Below, in pieces: positions 1-8,636 of a DNA stretch of 64,000 bases. This stretch comes from an uncultured Pseudomonadota bacterium (GTDB lineage: Bacteria > Pseudomonadota > Gammaproteobacteria > Steroidobacterales > Steroidobacteraceae). The position numbers and the translations under genes are program-made. The number at the start of each line of letters is the position of its first letter. Positions within the stretch are counted from its first letter, which is position 1. A model generated the notes under the pieces. The model saw nothing but the letters and a program-made list of their open reading frames with translations, ran no database searches and was not told the origin of the DNA. The stretch covers positions 1 through 64,000 of the forward strand of contig CAIVRI010000005.1 of assembly GCA_903908265.1 (NCBI GenBank). Reading direction: 5' to 3'.

Positions 1-18
1 GCCGCTTGGTGGCCTCGC

Positions 19-137
19 CGGTGGTCCCAGTTCACGAAATCGGTGGTACCCAACTCAGGAAATCGGGTGGGTCCGAACTCAGGAAATCAGGTGGTACCCA
101 ACTCAGGAAATCGACTGGGTCCCATCAGAGGAAATCG
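19..137. repeat. Five imperfect ~24-bp tandem repeats (consensus about GGTGGTACCCAACTCAGGAAATCG)
   Basis: Direct reading: ggtggtcccagttcacgaaatc / ggtggtacccaactcaggaaatc / gggtgggtccgaactcaggaaatc / aggtggtacccaactcaggaaatc / gactgggtcccatcagaggaaatc. Confidence 0.85.
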
Positions 138-576
138 TGCACGCAAAGCGGTCAAAGAATCTGACGAAATTGAAATTGGCGAATATGACCCGGCCAAACA
201 TGGCGGAGAAATCGCGCCACCACCGCCCGCTTTTCGATCCAACACTCCATTGACGGCCCTGCACTATCACGTCGGCTTGAGCGGCATCGACGATGCTGAT
301 GAGCGGCGAGAGTTACTGCGGAGCATCATCAGTTGCTCTTTTAAGCTATTGCCAAAGGTTGGCTCGCCGGATTACATGCGCCAGTGGGGCGAAGGCAAAA
401 GCCCGCAGCGGGTCAGATGCATGGCTTATCACCTCAGCTGGAACATCGGTTTCCCGGGTGCAAAAGAGACTAACGAGCTAGCGCGGCAGCACTGGGTGGA
501 AGACCTCAAATGGTTGACCAAAAACTACAAAGCAAAGATACCTGCGTCCAGGTGGCCGAAGGTGCCAACCTCTTGA
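43..576 (+). CDS. Hypothetical protein; N-terminus encoded by 24-bp repeats (VVPNSGNR-like 8-mers), C-terminal helical region (ALHYHVGLSGIDDADERRELL...DYMRQWGEGKSPQRVRCMAYHL)
   Basis: ORF track; true start uncertain because the N-terminal part is just translated repeats. Confidence 0.4.
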   Translation: MVPNSGNRVGPNSGNQVVPNSGNRLGPIRGNRARKAVKESDEIEIGEYDPAKHGGEIAPPPPAFRSNTPLTALHYHVGLSGIDDADERRELLRSIISCSFKLLPKVGSPDYMRQWGEGKSPQRVRCMAYHLSWNIGFPGAKETNELARQHWVEDLKWLTKNYKAKIPASRWPKVPTS

Positions 577-822
577 AGAGTGCTGGCATCTTTAAAAAGA
601 GGTCTAACTGGATCGGTGAGGATGTCCTAAAAGCCCGACAGCCAGCCTGGCCTCGGAACGGCGGAGGTTGTATGATGTCTTGGTTGAATAGGCGTGGCCA
701 CTCCTAAAACTCAGGCGAGTTAGGGAATGCTATCGATGTATTTTTATATTCGGCATTCAGGTAAGTGCGCCAAATAGAGGCAGTTAAGGTCAATAAAGCC
801 GCGACAACAGGAGGAGAGCAGA

Positions 823-3800
823 ATGTCCATGCATCAAATCCTGGGTGATGTCGCAGCGACGCTCGCAGCCTTATTGGAAAGTAATCTACCTCAAGTTGGT
901 AAAGACTGGTGGCAGTCATGCGTTATTGATCGACTCTCGATTCAGCAGCAGCGACTGGTAGCCGAGCGACGCGTTGACTCGCTGGCAGGTTTAGACCTCG
1001 CGGGATTGCTGCGGGTGTTCGATCAGAACTGGAATCCGCTTGGGTATCGACTGAACCTCGATCAGCAGACGCGCAGTTGGCTGAAGGAGGCGCAAGGAAT
1101 CCGCAACAGATGGGCTCACTTGCCTCCTGGGGGACTTCGATCAGAAGATGCCTACCGCGACGTCGACACGCTCCATCGGCTTCTCGTTGTACTTGGCGCA
1201 GACCAAGTAACCTTGGATCGGGCACAGGCTGAACGTGGACGTGTGCTAAGTGAGTTGTCCCCGCGACCGAATATTGGTGACGTCGCTACACAGGTTGCAC
1301 AGGCCAGGGGCGGCATCTCGAAGGGGACCGTCGTTCGCCTCAAGGCGCGCCCCGATATCACTGGGGCGGTGCTTGATGTCGTTCCCGGCGACCCGGAGGC
1401 TCGCTTCACGGTTTTTCATGGGGGCGAGGTCGCGACATACTACGAATCTCAGGTCGAGCCTATAGTCCTGAAGCCGAGCAGAAAGAATGTCGAACCAGAA
1501 GCGCTGCACGCTGCGCTCACGGCTACTCAGCTCAGGCACCCCAGCACCGGGCACCTCTACTCCCTTTACGCGTCACGGATCAATTTCGTCCCCTACCAAT
1601 TCCGGCCGGTACTGAAGTTGATCCAGGCGGATCGTCCTCGACTGCTGATCGCAGACGAGGTCGGCGTTGGCAAGACGATCGAAGCAGGCCTCATATTGAA
1701 GGAACTTCAAGCTCGTCGAGAACTGAAGTCCGTGCTGGTCATCTGCCCGAAGCCGCTGGTCGCCGAGCGCAAGTGGATGGAGGAACTCAAGCGTTTCGAC
1801 GAGCAGTGCACCCATATCGACGGCGACGCCCTGCGCTACTGCATCGAGGAGACCCACCTCGATGGGACATGGCCTCAACAATATGCGCGCTCGATCGTTC
1901 CGTATTCGCTGTTCGACGAAACTCTTCTGCTGGGAAAGCAGGGTAAGGGCCGCAAGATCCGGGGACTTCTGGATCTGGATCCACCGCCGGCATTCGATCT
2001 CGTCATTGTGGACGAGGCGCATCACATTCGGAATACGGACACCTGGGCCTACAGGACGGTCAGGTACTTCTGCGACAACGCTGAGGCGGTGGTGCTGCTG
2101 TCGGCGACGCCCATTCAATTGGGCGACAACGACCTCTTCACGTTGCTCCAGCTGGTTCGCCCCGACTTGCTCCCTAGCCGTCGCGATTTCGACCACATGG
2201 CGGAGCCCAACCCCCACATCAACGCGGCGATCGAAATCGCACGTAATGCGAAACCGGGGTGGATGGCTGCCGCGCGAAAAAGACTCGCGCTGGCCTTAGG
2301 GACCGATTGGGGAGCCTCGGTCCTGTCAGCAGACGCGCGGGTCCAACCACTCCTCGACGCGTTGGCTCAGCAAGAACTGCGAATCGAAGACCGCCTGACG
2401 GTAGTTAGGGAACTGGAGTCGCTCTACACCTTTGCGCCGATCATCAATCGGACGCGTCGGCGCGACATCGGAAATTTCACGACACGAAAGCCCGAGACGG
2501 TGTCTGTCGACTTCACGACAGAGCAGGAACTTCTGCACAGCGGAGTTCTCGACTTGGTCGGCAGGATTCTTGCCCATCGTCACGGTGACCGAAACCTGCC
2601 GTTCATGATGACGACGATCCGCAGGCAAGTGGCCAGTTGCGTGTTTGGTCTCGCGCCTTACCTAGAGGCTATCCTTTCAGGCCAGTTGACCCGACTTGAA
2701 TTGAGTGAGACGGATACCGATGACGGGGTGCAGGTGATGACAGAGGCGTTCGCAGAGTTCCGCGCCGACGTTGATGCGCTCCTTCGCCTAGCCAAGGGGC
2801 TGAGTTCGGAAGATCCCAAGTTTTCAAAGTTCGCCAAGGTAGTGTTGGACAAGCAGGCCCTGCCGAACAATAAACTGCTGGTATTTAGCACCTTCCGTCA
2901 CACGCTCGCCTATTTGGTGGACAAGCTCCAGAGTGAAAGTATCCGCATCGGACTGATCCACGGGGATGTGCCAGAGGAAGAACGCCGCGAACTGCGCAAC
3001 CGATTCAGCCGCCCGAAGGATGATCCTCGTGCGATCGATCTGCTGCTGTCCTCGGAGGTGGGCTGCGAAGGCCTCGACTACCAATTCTGTGACGGCATCG
3101 TCAACTACGACTTGCCATGGAACCCGATGCGGGTGGAGCAACGCATCGGCCGTATCGACCGCTATGGGCAGAAAAGCGAAACCGTGGCGATCTTCAACTT
3201 CATCACGCCTGGCACCGTGGATGCAGAGATCTACGAGCGGTGTCTGCTTCGAATTGGCGTGTTCCGGCAGGCGCTCGGTGGCAGCGAGGAAATCCTTGGA
3301 AAACTCACACGCGAGATCCGCTCTATCGCCGAAAACCTTCAGTTGACCTTGGAGGAGCAGTCCCACCGGCTCCAACAACTTGCCGATAACGAGATCCGTG
3401 TGGTGCAGGAACAGACACTTCTTGAAGAACAACAGGCGACGCTGTTCGGACTCTCGGTGCCAAAGCAAGATGAGGAATTGATCAAAAGTGCATCGAGCTT
3501 CTGGCTCACGCCATCCAGGATTCGAAACCTCATCGAGGCGTACCTGTCGACGCTCGACTCGGGCCGGTCGTACAAGCTGCAGGGCCGACAGCCGATCGTG
3601 AGCATTCAGCTCAATCAAGAAATCCGGAACCGATTGATCAGTGATTTCAAGGCAGTCTCGCAGATTGGTGCCGTTGACCGAACCTGGGAACGCTGGCTCA
3701 AGGGCAACGACCCCTATCTGCGATTGACCTTCGACCCGGCGGCTGCTGACGAGGACCGGTCGGCTACGTTCGTCACGCCTACGCATCCCTTGGCCAGGCA

Positions 3801-4365
3801 AGCCGCCAAGATATCTGAGCCCCTATCGACGCTCGCGTGTGCCGTTTCAGCCAAGTCATCGATTGTGGCGTCGGGTCGCTATCCGTTCGCGATCTATCGG
3901 TGGAAAGTCATGGGCGTGAGGGAGTCCTTCGCGTTCCAACCAATCTGCGAAAGCGAGGAGCACTCGAAAGCCTTGCTGGAGTTGCTTGAGGGTGCGACCG
4001 CCGCTCAGGGTGCGGCAGCAATCACGGTCGCCGAAGAGGAACGACTGGAGGCCATTCACTACCGGGTCTGGATGAGCCGGCGTGGAGAACACATCGAGTC
4101 TGTGACTCAGTCTGCAGAAATCAGGATGGCATCGCTCAAGGCCTCGCACCAGGCCCGCTTGGCTCTGCTTGAAGAGCAACGTGATCAAGCGACTGATGCG
4201 CGCATCAGGCGGATGAAGGATGGACAGATCGAAGCTGCCAACCGCGATTTCGAGCGGCGGTCTTCAGAATTGGATCGGGTCGCAGGGCAGGCCGAGATCG
4301 TAGCCGAAGCCGCTGTCCTTGGGGTTCTGACTGTGGAATCACTATCCGCGCAGACGGGAACATGA
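823..4365 (+). CDS. Swt1-type HEPN domain-containing SNF2/DEAH-box helicase
   Basis: N-terminal HEPN with RX4H (R94-NRWA-H99); Walker A ADEVGVGKTIEAG; VDEAHHIRN; LLSATP; helicase C-terminal motifs VFSTFRHTLAYL and MRVEQRIGRIDRYGQ; RBS aggagg upstream. Confidence 0.85.
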   Translation: MSMHQILGDVAATLAALLESNLPQVGKDWWQSCVIDRLSIQQQRLVAERRVDSLAGLDLAGLLRVFDQNWNPLGYRLNLDQQTRSWLKEAQGIRNRWAHLPPGGLRSEDAYRDVDTLHRLLVVLGADQVTLDRAQAERGRVLSELSPRPNIGDVATQVAQARGGISKGTVVRLKARPDITGAVLDVVPGDPEARFTVFHGGEVATYYESQVEPIVLKPSRKNVEPEALHAALTATQLRHPSTGHLYSLYASRINFVPYQFRPVLKLIQADRPRLLIADEVGVGKTIEAGLILKELQARRELKSVLVICPKPLVAERKWMEELKRFDEQCTHIDGDALRYCIEETHLDGTWPQQYARSIVPYSLFDETLLLGKQGKGRKIRGLLDLDPPPAFDLVIVDEAHHIRNTDTWAYRTVRYFCDNAEAVVLLSATPIQLGDNDLFTLLQLVRPDLLPSRRDFDHMAEPNPHINAAIEIARNAKPGWMAAARKRLALALGTDWGASVLSADARVQPLLDALAQQELRIEDRLTVVRELESLYTFAPIINRTRRRDIGNFTTRKPETVSVDFTTEQELLHSGVLDLVGRILAHRHGDRNLPFMMTTIRRQVASCVFGLAPYLEAILSGQLTRLELSETDTDDGVQVMTEAFAEFRADVDALLRLAKGLSSEDPKFSKFAKVVLDKQALPNNKLLVFSTFRHTLAYLVDKLQSESIRIGLIHGDVPEEERRELRNRFSRPKDDPRAIDLLLSSEVGCEGLDYQFCDGIVNYDLPWNPMRVEQRIGRIDRYGQKSETVAIFNFITPGTVDAEIYERCLLRIGVFRQALGGSEEILGKLTREIRSIAENLQLTLEEQSHRLQQLADNEIRVVQEQTLLEEQQATLFGLSVPKQDEELIKSASSFWLTPSRIRNLIEAYLSTLDSGRSYKLQGRQPIVSIQLNQEIRNRLISDFKAVSQIGAVDRTWERWLKGNDPYLRLTFDPAAADEDRSATFVTPTHPLARQAAKISEPLSTLACAVSAKSSIVASGRYPFAIYRWKVMGVRESFAFQPICESEEHSKALLELLEGATAAQGAAAITVAEEERLEAIHYRVWMSRRGEHIESVTQSAEIRMASLKASHQARLALLEEQRDQATDARIRRMKDGQIEAANRDFERRSSELDRVAGQAEIVAEAAVLGVLTVESLSAQTGT

Positions 4366-4401
4366 CCAACGCTGATTGCAAAGTAAAAAGAGAGGTGGCC
4401 G

Positions 4402-7400
4402 ATGACCTTTAGCAAACCAGAGTTCGATCAACTCCAGTCGGATCGACTTGCTTACGTTGATGGCCTCCGAAGAAATAAGGGATTCGAAGCTGGCATTCTT
4501 CGGCTGCTGACGCAACTCTACCCCGACAACGCACACTTCATTTACGAACTACTGCAAAACGCAGAAGATGCGAAGGCTTCATACGCGCGATTTACCCTCT
4601 CCAAGGAGGCACTGCTCTTCGAGCATGACGGATCACGTCTCTTTTCGGCAAGGGATGTGGAGTCGATTACCAGCATAGGTGACAGTACCAAAGCGGACTC
4701 TCCAACAGAGATTGGTAAGTTTGGAGTCGGCTTCAAGGCGGTCTTCGCTTACACAAAGACGCCAGAAATTCACTCCGGCGAATATCACTTTCGCATTCGT
4801 GACCTCGTGGTTCCAGAACTCCTGCCCTCATCGCACATTTCTGCAGAAGGGTTCAAGACAACGTTTCTGTTTCCATTTGATCATCAGAAAAAAGATGCGC
4901 AGCAAGCCGCGCAGGAGATCACCGGGGCTCTGAAGTCGTTGGACGATACGGCTCTACTTTTCTTGTCGAATATTTGCAAAATTAGCTTTGTACTGCCGGA
5001 TGGTTCTGAGGGAAGATTGGAGCGAAATACTCCAACGGATATTCCTCAGTTATCCAGCAAAGGCCAGCAGATTCAAGTTATTGTGAACACACCCTCGACC
5101 GCGCCTCGCAAGTCAAACTGGCTTTTATACAGTCAAGTCGTAACTATCGACGATGAATCGACGCGCAAGGATTGCACCGTTGCGATTGCCTTTAGCCTCG
5201 CAGAGAACGAAGGCAAAACCAAAAAGTCGAACTGGAAAGTGGTCCCCCTCCACCCAGGCCGAGTTTCAATCTATTTTCCAGCTGACAAGGAAACATCGAA
5301 CCTTCGGTTCCACATGCATGCGCCATTCGCTTCGACAGTGGCGCGCGATAGCGTTCGGGACTGCCAAGGAAATCACCAACTCTTAGCAGCTCTTGCACAA
5401 TTGACTTCCGAATCCATGATTAACTTGCGCGATCGGGGTTTGCTAACAATATCGGCACTTGAGGTACTTCCTATCGAGGACGACAACCTGCCGAAGTTTT
5501 ATGAACCAATTAGAGAAAAACTTATTCTCTCATTCGCAGAACAGGCTCTGGTCCTCACTATTTCCGGTGAATATCGTAAGTCCGGCGATCTTTTTCGTGG
5601 TCCCGCCGATATTGCAGCAGTCTTGGGCGACAAAGATCTTGCCTTAATTACTGGGGAAAAGTTGACTACACCACTTTGGTGTGCGAACCCGCCTCAAGTA
5701 AACCAACGCGCGGATAAGTTTCTAGACAGTCTCTTAATTAAATTATGGGGCTGGGAAGAGTTGTCCGAAGCGTTAGATTGCACTTCATGCAAGGTTGCAT
5801 ATGGAGAGGATAAAGGGAGGTTGAAGCGGCTTAGTTCTTGGATCGCCTCTAAAGAGGACGCATGGTTACAGAAATTCTATGCAATGCTGCATGATGCAAT
5901 ACTGCGACATCACGAGACTTTTGATGTAGCAGATCTTTCTTTTGTTCGCGTGATCAAGGATGGTCAGAACCATATGGTCCGACCTCGCGAGGCCTTCTTC
6001 GCACTTGACGAGGCAGAGAGAAAGTCTGATGTACTTTGGGTTAAGCAAGAAACTTATTCATCAGGTAAATCCGTTGCTCAGAAAGAGAGCGCCAAACGAT
6101 TTCTCGTGCACGCTGGAGTCAAGGTTTTTAATGAAAAAGAAGCTTTGGCCGTACTTCTTTCAACATACAAAGAGGGGACATTTCCGAATGACTCGACGCA
6201 CTTAAGACATATTCGGCAGTTTGTTCAATTTCACAAGAGGCAACCCCGGGATGTAGATGTTTTTGCAGGAAAGAAATTTCTTCGAGCAATCAATTCAAAA
6301 CATCCAGACAAAAATATATTCTGCGATCCTTCGCGAATTTACTTAGATACACCATATGAGGAAACCGGACTAGCATCCATAAAAAGTGCACAGCCAAAAT
6401 ATATATTGTGGAACGGATACGTAGATTTAAAAGCAGGCTTCGTTGATTTCGTAAAGGCCGTGGGAGTGCAGGCAGAACTGACAATTGTCGAAGCCCGAGT
6501 ATCAGATAACGAAAATTGGCAACGGCTATCTAAAGACTATGGATATAGAGTTCGCTGTACAGCATCAGCCATTGTCGCAGATTGGACGATCGAAGGTATT
6601 TTTTTATTGCTTCAAGAGCCATCGCTCGAAGCAAGTCGTCTTATCTGGAAGGCTTTGATTCGTGCGGATAGAAGGGTAGCAAAGGCTCGGTTTCGACCGA
6701 ACCAAAGTTACGACGTTATCGAATCGGAATCTCAGCTGATTTGTCATCTCAAGGGGACCGCGTGGATTCCAGATTCCGATGGCAATTTCCACTTGCCGAA
6801 CGAGATATCTCGCACCCAACTTAGGGCGGATTTTCCGTTCGATAATCAGAATGGGCTCCTTGACGCAATCGGACTCGAGAGCAGTGTGCTGAAAAAGAGC
6901 GAAGAATTTCAGCGCAAAGATCTGACAGTTAGGGAAATCGGGTTTAGCGGCGTTAACGGCGCCACCAATGTGGCAAATGCCGCGAAACAGGCCGGCCTTA
7001 GCGAAGAGGATTTAGTGGCAATGATCAGGCAACATGCGCCAAGCCCCGATCAACCGGAAGAGGAAGTTCGCAACACAGATCGTCGCCGGCGTGGTGTTCT
7101 AGAGCACCGCGATAACGCTCCCTCAAGGGAGTCTGTTCAGCGCGAGCGATTAATTCAATCCAACGTGCAAGGCGTCATGGCAGAGGCGAAGGCATACCTG
7201 CGAGCGAAGTACACCAATGGGCAGGGGCAGATGGTCTGCCAAGTTTGCAAAAATGAGATGCCCTTTAAATTGGGCACGGGCGAGCACTACTTTGAGGCAG
7301 TTCAGGCGATCCGAGGTCTTTCTCAGCACTACTACGAGAACCGGCTGGCTCTATGTCCCACCTGCGCTGCGATGTATCAGTACGCGAGAGCATGTACCGA

Positions 7401-7563
7401 TCCTGAGTTGAAGGACCGAGTTGAAGCTATCGACGGTGAAACTGCTGGTTTATCTGTCGAGTTAGAAGTGGTGCTGGCGGGGTTGACGCGGAAGATCCGT
7501 TTTGTCGGAACGCACTTCTTCGATCTCAGGGTGGTCCTAGACGGATCAGAGGCTAAGGATTAG
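4402..7563 (+). CDS. Sacsin/GHKL-type (HSP90-like) ATPase protein with C-terminal degenerate HNH-like zinc module
   Basis: FIYELLQNAEDA (N-box), ITSIGDSTK and GKFGVGFKAVF (G2); C-terminal CQVCKNE...YFEAVQAI...NRLALCPTCAAMYQYA; 36 bp downstream of the helicase gene on the same strand. Confidence 0.8.
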   Translation: MTFSKPEFDQLQSDRLAYVDGLRRNKGFEAGILRLLTQLYPDNAHFIYELLQNAEDAKASYARFTLSKEALLFEHDGSRLFSARDVESITSIGDSTKADSPTEIGKFGVGFKAVFAYTKTPEIHSGEYHFRIRDLVVPELLPSSHISAEGFKTTFLFPFDHQKKDAQQAAQEITGALKSLDDTALLFLSNICKISFVLPDGSEGRLERNTPTDIPQLSSKGQQIQVIVNTPSTAPRKSNWLLYSQVVTIDDESTRKDCTVAIAFSLAENEGKTKKSNWKVVPLHPGRVSIYFPADKETSNLRFHMHAPFASTVARDSVRDCQGNHQLLAALAQLTSESMINLRDRGLLTISALEVLPIEDDNLPKFYEPIREKLILSFAEQALVLTISGEYRKSGDLFRGPADIAAVLGDKDLALITGEKLTTPLWCANPPQVNQRADKFLDSLLIKLWGWEELSEALDCTSCKVAYGEDKGRLKRLSSWIASKEDAWLQKFYAMLHDAILRHHETFDVADLSFVRVIKDGQNHMVRPREAFFALDEAERKSDVLWVKQETYSSGKSVAQKESAKRFLVHAGVKVFNEKEALAVLLSTYKEGTFPNDSTHLRHIRQFVQFHKRQPRDVDVFAGKKFLRAINSKHPDKNIFCDPSRIYLDTPYEETGLASIKSAQPKYILWNGYVDLKAGFVDFVKAVGVQAELTIVEARVSDNENWQRLSKDYGYRVRCTASAIVADWTIEGIFLLLQEPSLEASRLIWKALIRADRRVAKARFRPNQSYDVIESESQLICHLKGTAWIPDSDGNFHLPNEISRTQLRADFPFDNQNGLLDAIGLESSVLKKSEEFQRKDLTVREIGFSGVNGATNVANAAKQAGLSEEDLVAMIRQHAPSPDQPEEEVRNTDRRRRGVLEHRDNAPSRESVQRERLIQSNVQGVMAEAKAYLRAKYTNGQGQMVCQVCKNEMPFKLGTGEHYFEAVQAIRGLSQHYYENRLALCPTCAAMYQYARACTDPELKDRVEAIDGETAGLSVELEVVLAGLTRKIRFVGTHFFDLRVVLDGSEAKD

Positions 7564-7597
7564 TGACAGTGACAAGTTGCTGGATTTGCCCAATACG

Positions 7598-7858
7598 TCA
7601 AACCGAAATTCGTAGCGATTTTTTCCGATTCCCCACCGCCCGACTGACCAAATTACTTATCGAACCTGCTGCCTGTATGTCATTGAAAATACTTGAAGTG
7701 GCGTCGCGAGCGCTCGCGCCCACTAGGTTTTTGACCATAAGCAGCAAAATCACTCCGAAAAATATGAATCCAAAAACACCTTTGACTAGAGCGAATACGA
7801 GTCTGAGCCCAGCCAAAGCTAGCGGAATCATGGCTAACAGAATCAAGATCTGAATCAC
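7598..7858 (-). CDS. Small hydrophobic (membrane) hypothetical protein
   Basis: 86-aa ORF with long hydrophobic N-terminal segments. Confidence 0.4.
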   Translation of the reverse strand: MIQILILLAMIPLALAGLRLVFALVKGVFGFIFFGVILLLMVKNLVGASARDATSSIFNDIQAAGSISNLVSRAVGNRKKSLRISV

Positions 7859-8285: not shown

Positions 8286-8636
8286 TGGTGGAGCCGGGGG
8301 GAATCGAACCCCCGTCCGCAAGTCCTACGCTACAAGATCTACATGCTTATCCGGTCTATTGATCTCGCTTCGAGCTACCCGATCGGCAGGGAAAACTCGA
8401 GGCCAGACCCGTCCTTTTTAGCGATGTGCGACCCGGGTCACGCGCACACCACGATCCTGAGTTTGCGACCCCATCTCCCCCCGCTCAGGCACGGAAGAAG
8501 TGGAGTAGGCGGGGCTTAAGCCGCCAGAGCGTAGCTGTTGTCGTTCGCAGCTAAAATTTGCAAATGGTTTAACGAGGAATCCGCACCTCGGCATGCACCT
8601 GGAGTTTCGTAACCCACGTCGAAACCGGTCGGCCCC
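8286..8636 (-). ncRNA. ssrA: tmRNA (tag ANDNSYALAA)
   Basis: Minus strand 5' GGGGCCGACCGGTTTCGACG ... 3' GGACGGGGGTTCGATTCCCCCCGGCTCCACCA; tag reading frame GCG AAC GAC AAC AGC TAC GCT CTG GCG GCT TAA at 8548-8516. Confidence 0.95.

Follow-up and report, generated by a model that had tools for sequence, protein, structure and literature searches.

Near the start of a 64,000-nucleotide contig stretch from an uncultured Steroidobacteraceae bacterium (CAIVRI010000005.1; hereafter the window) lie two large genes, one encoding a SNF2 helicase with an N-terminal HEPN domain and the other a sacsin-type GHKL ATPase. Do these genes work as one unit, and is that unit a defence system? The original prediction had read them as a candidate anti-phage pair of co-directional genes separated by 36 bp, and the open reading frames (ORFs) lie exactly as claimed:

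823..4365, + strand: gene 1, HEPN-SNF2 (RapA/DrmD-like) helicase, 1180 amino acids (aa), ATG start
4402..7563, + strand: gene 2, sacsin-type GHKL ATPase, 1053 aa, ATG start

We found that gene 1 and gene 2 form one unit, and we consider it likely that the pair is a mobile two-gene module directed against phages or other mobile genetic elements, that is, a defence system. The defence reading of the original prediction held for the two-gene unit, the conserved HEPN motif and the defence-island company, but the HEPN domain did not prove essential to the unit.

The two genes recur as a pair in defence-rich surroundings

The GHKL gene stands directly after the HEPN-helicase gene in 10/10 unrelated loci with readable downstream DNA (the window, L020, L021, L022, L035, L038, L039, L040, L108 and L117). 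Three loci whose contigs stop within or at the helicase (L029, L118 and H65) were left out of this count, and L025 and L123 were entered not as support but as exceptions. In a sample of 399 Pseudomonadota genomes, gene 1 occurred in five, gene 2 in seven and both in four (Fisher p = 1.7e-7), so that the pair passes the co-occurrence check set out with the original prediction; the spread is patchy, with 6 of the 399 genomes as carriers, the window's own included. These co-occurrence data refute the notion that the genes are chance neighbours with no functional link, which nothing was found to favour: the adjacency recurs in unrelated contexts, the two genes overlap by 4 bp in L035 and L038, and the probability left to chance is negligible. 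In L020 and L022 the pair stands alone as a two-gene insertion amid housekeeping genes, indicating that the two genes are the minimal unit. Relative to the closely similar contig L013, the ratio of nonsynonymous to synonymous substitution rates (dN/dS) was 0.07 for gene 1 and 0.27 for gene 2 (the latter from only 13 differences), and both genes therefore look real and constrained.

The pair is carried by conjugative and other plasmids, viral or prophage-like contigs and defence islands. Its neighbours include type I restriction genes (near L036 and L040), McrBC (L039), GmrSD (L035), Vsr (L038), the BREX proteins PglX and PglZ (beside the L117 copy), Lamassu LmuB with a Cap4 nuclease (L014) and a Mokosh-like protein (L015).

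More distant helicases, of ~30% identity or less (L126, L128, L129 and L130), have different neighbours. On an archaeal plasmid (L017), a 28%-identical helicase adjoins a sacsin-GHKL gene, and the helicase–GHKL association may therefore be older than HEPN.

As to the two exceptions, L025 (570–2495) is a single open frame in which HEPN and the first helicase lobe are joined in frame to the GHKL zinc tail. It looks like an in-frame deletion of ~1600 codons spanning both genes, with an assembly artefact possible, and is followed by a HEPN/MNT toxin–antitoxin-like pair. L123 (2–4949) is a rearranged copy: after the HEPN-helicase comes a remnant of the GHKL gene, encoded on the other strand.

Gene 1 joins a HEPN domain to a RapA-class helicase

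The Swt1-type HEPN domain and the complete SNF2/DEAH helicase expected in gene 1 were both recovered by profile searches, with every helicase motif in place:

859..1191, + strand: HEPN_Swt1 domain, residues 13–123 (PF18731, 4.4e-15, above cut-off; all-helical in the predicted model)
1102-1119, + strand: RX4H motif RNRWAH, residues 94–99, with R94/H99 intact
1330..1491, + strand: putative Tudor/SH3-like beta barrel, about residues 170–223, as in RapA/BrxHII (AF2-model strands 170–222)
1603..3312, + strand: SNF2 helicase core, about residues 261–830 (Walker A at 1663, DEAHH at 2011, motif VI at 3139)

The helicase matched SNF2-rel_dom (4e-19) and Helicase_C (3e-19), and its motifs (GVGKT at residue 281, DEAHH at 397, SATP at 427 and QRIGRIDRYGQ at 773) are conserved in an alignment of homologues (A1). 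DrmD ranked first and BrxH second among the PADLOC profiles for gene 1; RapA was the top structural match to its predicted fold (1102 columns) and also came first in a sequence search against solved structures. By these similarities the helicase is assigned to the RapA/DrmD/BrxHII class of SNF2 translocases. Three features go beyond the original prediction, namely an HNH-like zinc tail in gene 2 and, in gene 1, the barrel and a C-terminal region that ends in a long coiled coil in the predicted model. The barrel lies between HEPN and helicase, and its Tudor/SH3-like name is our inference.

PF18731 was found in 7/7 members of a second alignment (A6), and the motif RN[RKNHD]WAH is retained in 12/12 aligned HEPN-bearing homologues (38–65% identity); R-x4-H is kept in L123 as well. 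Against solved structures, the HEPN sequence gave chance-level matches only. HEPN is thus under selection, though some related pairs do not have it.

The likeness to RapA raises the alternative that the pair is a transcription-linked factor of mobile elements, acting in RNA polymerase recycling or silencing and not in immunity. RapA is indeed the best structural match, and a small, weakly sigma-like gene lies just upstream in the Rhizobiaceae versions; the defence-gene neighbourhood, the HEPN RNase domain and the patchy spread speak against such a factor, and we regard it as very improbable.

Gene 2 is a sacsin-type ATPase with a degenerate HNH-like tail

Gene 2 begins, as had been predicted, with an HSP90/sacsin-like ATPase fold:

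4507..4797, + strand: GHKL/sacsin ATP-binding domain, residues 36–132 (PF25794 SACS, 9.8e-20; Hsp90-like fold)
4546, + strand: N-box ELLQNAEDA, residue 49, conserved in family alignments
4714, + strand: G2 motif GKFGVGFKAVF, residue 105, conserved in family alignments
7222..7392, + strand: C-terminal HNH-like treble-clef zinc domain (CQVC at residue 946, CPTC at residue 985; aligns with the EcoKMcrA HNH)

The NCBIfam sacsin N-terminal domain scored 93 bits (cut-off 50). The predicted model is mostly confident up to about residue 825 and resembles the Hsp90 N and middle domains, sacsin SR1, MutL, GyrB and MORC2. In the tail, the catalytic histidines of EcoKMcrA are replaced (EVHHVI by EAVQAI, CPNCH by CPTCA); they are missing across most of the gene 2 family, and some relatives in the family alignment lack the zinc ligands too. 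DNA cutting by HNH chemistry is therefore unlikely, and the reading of this tail as an active HNH nuclease was rejected. No active nuclease could be recognised in gene 2, which leaves HEPN as the evident candidate effector.

Other GHKL proteins were met alongside this family. A viral contig (L109, 7968–11177) encodes a full-length GHKL protein with the zinc tail and no adjoining helicase; the ATPase may thus be able to function by itself or in trans. The GHKL fold predicted for gene 2 recurs in many phage RIIA proteins. A link from this modelled likeness to counter-defence is speculative, and the structural search against viral proteins was rejected as functional evidence because it reflects only the common fold. 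A distinct conserved locus (L023, L026, L112 and L113) encodes a UvrD-type helicase and a divergent sacsin-GHKL protein (~1090 aa), together with two large unknown proteins. A relative, L018, carries NOV_C at its end and is located beside Qat genes. The conserved locus is possibly another sacsin-based defence system.

A proposed mechanism and the loss of HEPN

How might the two proteins act together? In the mechanism that we propose, the RapA-class double-stranded DNA translocase of gene 1 would engage foreign DNA or an RNA polymerase bound to it, and the Hsp90/sacsin-type ATPase of gene 2 would shut like a clamp on ATP binding and relay or license the signal. The N-terminal HEPN RNase of gene 1 would then be released or dimerised and cut host and/or phage RNA, and growth would stop before phage release. 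We give even chances to this full sequence of translocase sensing, ATPase clamp and RNase output, and lean towards HEPN as the killing output at the window locus. According to PMC8501970, the N-terminal domain of RapA keeps the RapA ATPase inactive and RNA polymerase turns it on, by analogy a fitting precedent for the proposed switching of gene 1. A further and rather doubtful idea is that the ATP clamp is an obligate in-trans switch between the RapA-class translocase and the HEPN RNase. The pair would then act as an abortive-infection module under chaperone gating and would parallel, in prokaryotes, the union of GHKL and HEPN in animal sacsin.

Two observations weigh against the proposed mechanism. 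HEPN is absent from the related pairs L014–L016 and L036, and from L037, whose partner gene lies past the contig end, so the pair must act without HEPN at these loci. In addition, the structural models are single-chain and low-depth, with predicted local distance difference test (pLDDT) values of 68–69, and cannot show a complex. In the helicase tree, the HEPN-less Rhizobiaceae versions, L036 and L037 fall among HEPN-bearing helicases, with weak support at the deep nodes; this placement fits about three losses of HEPN while helicase and GHKL stayed paired. The HEPN profile of this family found no separate HEPN gene at the HEPN-less loci, and the supply of HEPN by such a gene was rejected on this ground. 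Because HEPN was apparently lost while the pair was kept, helicase and GHKL appear to be the conserved core and HEPN a usual but replaceable output. In the HEPN-less Rhizobiaceae versions, and only there, a small, weakly sigma-factor-like gene overlaps the helicase start (L014, 8239–8769; L015, 8226–8780; L016, 8235–8765).

The same losses favour the leading rival explanation, which we nevertheless consider unlikely. It assigns the blocking of invading DNA to the helicase/GHKL core itself, which would act in a DISARM- or BREX-like manner by stalling replication or transcription or by loading a host nuclease; HEPN would be only a backup suicide module upon failure of the core. The helicase belongs to the class found in DISARM, BREX and ARMADA, and back-up HEPN effectors have been proposed for BREX-related systems (PMC12839542). 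Yet the window's genome has no PglZ or DrmB, the stand-alone loci have no methylase to mark self, the core has no active nuclease domain, and the HEPN motif is strictly retained wherever HEPN is present.

The pair lies on a mobile cassette

What is the extent of the mobile element? Two features bear on this:

141..7733, + strand: segment 99.1% identical to contig L013 (blastn), the visible extent of the mobile cassette
8286..8636, − strand: transfer-messenger RNA gene ssrA (ARAGORN), with the cassette at its 3' end

The flanks of L013, which is filed under an Acidobacteriia bin, diverge from those of the window on both sides; the near-identity may stem from a recent transfer event or from a strain variant assigned to the wrong bin. 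A scan of genome contigs with gene 2 returned one near-identical contig only, and E. coli genomes contained no similar DNA. The GC content of the cassette is 0.45–0.59, against 0.61–0.66 in the neighbouring core. The 3' end of ssrA is a usual insertion site for islands. The window's genome contains no second copy of this end; attachment (att) sites are therefore unproven, and an ssrA att duplication was rejected.

Upstream of gene 1 lies an ORF shared by the window (1–576) and L013 (1–711) that has no Pfam or NCBIfam match; its N-terminus differs between the two, being a coiled coil in L013. Tandem 24-bp repeats (GGTACCCAACTCAGGAAATC-like) lie within this ORF at the contig start (42–136), where the L013 sequence differs, hence a rearrangement or an assembly breakpoint.

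The frequency of the pair on plasmids and mobile contigs, together with the common use of HEPN as a toxin, could also suit a selfish toxin–antitoxin-like maintenance module, in which the ATPase restrains the HEPN toxin and keeps plasmids or islands in the population. No small antitoxin is present, however; ATPase-motor proteins exceeding 1000 aa do not resemble toxin–antitoxin modules, and HEPN has been lost with both partners retained. We judge such a module improbable and retain the defence reading.

Comparison with known systems

Is this a known system? No named system in PADLOC 2.0 or NCBIfam matches both genes as one whole, in line with the original prediction, and the best component names differ between the genes (DrmD and TmtA). 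The closest PADLOC match of gene 1 is DrmD, the RapA-type SNF2 helicase of class 1 DISARM (3e-117, residues 229–1035). Gene 1 differs from it in carrying HEPN, in having a GHKL ATPase as partner and in scoring only 319 bits, where the NCBIfam DrmD cut-off is 610. No DrmB-type protein (MZB/DUF1998, PF09369) was found in the window's genome or in 4/5 other carriers, and the sole match (G204) lies on a separate contig of a contaminated bin. In L020 and L022, where the pair stands alone, no methylase adjoins the helicase; in the window, the contig end truncates the region upstream of the pair. Membership of DISARM was rejected on the DrmB and DrmD results.

The layout of gene 1 (TUDOR, Swi2/Snf2 and a RapA-like C-terminus) also resembles BrxHII of BREX type 3, for which a TUDOR domain is named, and the DUF499/Hma BREX-related helicases (PMC12839542). 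HEPN recurs in BREX-related systems, fused to a DUF499 ATPase (PMC12839542). Unlike BREX type 3, the pair has no PglZ, BrxC or methyltransferase, HEPN sits on the helicase itself and GHKL replaces AAA+. PglZ (PF08665) is absent from the window's genome and present only next to the L117 copy, and BREX membership was rejected. In L117 (3–16144), a fecal phage record, a BREX-like operon (PglX, a Schlafen/AlbA-like protein and PglZ) runs straight on into the genes for the HEPN-helicase and the GHKL protein, and the pair occupies the place beside PglZ where the BREX helicase could be expected. ARMADA, a tested anti-phage operon, likewise has a BrxHII-like RapA helicase (ArmA), but comprises four genes, including YprA and GajB helicases and a methylase, with no HEPN or GHKL in the text of PMC12458937.

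Gene 2 matches two profiles of TmtA (1.2e-58 and 3.4e-57), which we take to be a component of Tiamat, a one-gene system. Residues 31–802 align to positions 29–804 of a 1302-position profile, where the match stops; the profiles span 1302–1486 aa, and their last 500 positions are unmatched. The GHKL proteins of other loci match in the same fashion, over the first 800 positions only. By profile similarity gene 2 groups with the PADLOC TmtA relatives, and it differs from Tiamat in its helicase partner and HNH-like tail.

The HEPN–SNF2 half has been known since 2013: the available text of Anantharaman et al. 2013 (PMC3710099) lists a Swt1-family HEPN-SWI2/SNF2 fusion (WQE_15321) as active, with no sacsin ATPase partner described in that text. 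The same text couples a HEPN RNase to a GHKL ATPase in restriction–modification neighbourhoods (Ymh HEPN-paraMORC); there the HEPN is of another family, fused in cis to the ATPase, and no helicase takes part. The open-access literature, to which the search was confined (subscription papers and preprints elsewhere lay outside it), holds no description of the HEPN-helicase and sacsin-GHKL pair. If defensive, the pair is a widespread and compact system of two genes and 6.7 kb, unnamed in the PADLOC-DB and NCBIfam releases searched. In that case, RapA-class helicases and sacsin-type GHKL ATPases, which other systems contain separately, would make up a single machine whose HEPN effector can be exchanged, and the pair would also offer a bacterial model for partner control by Hsp90-like sacsin ATPases. 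Taken against these relatives, the pair is probably an unnamed two-gene anti-virus system assembled from parts of known ones.

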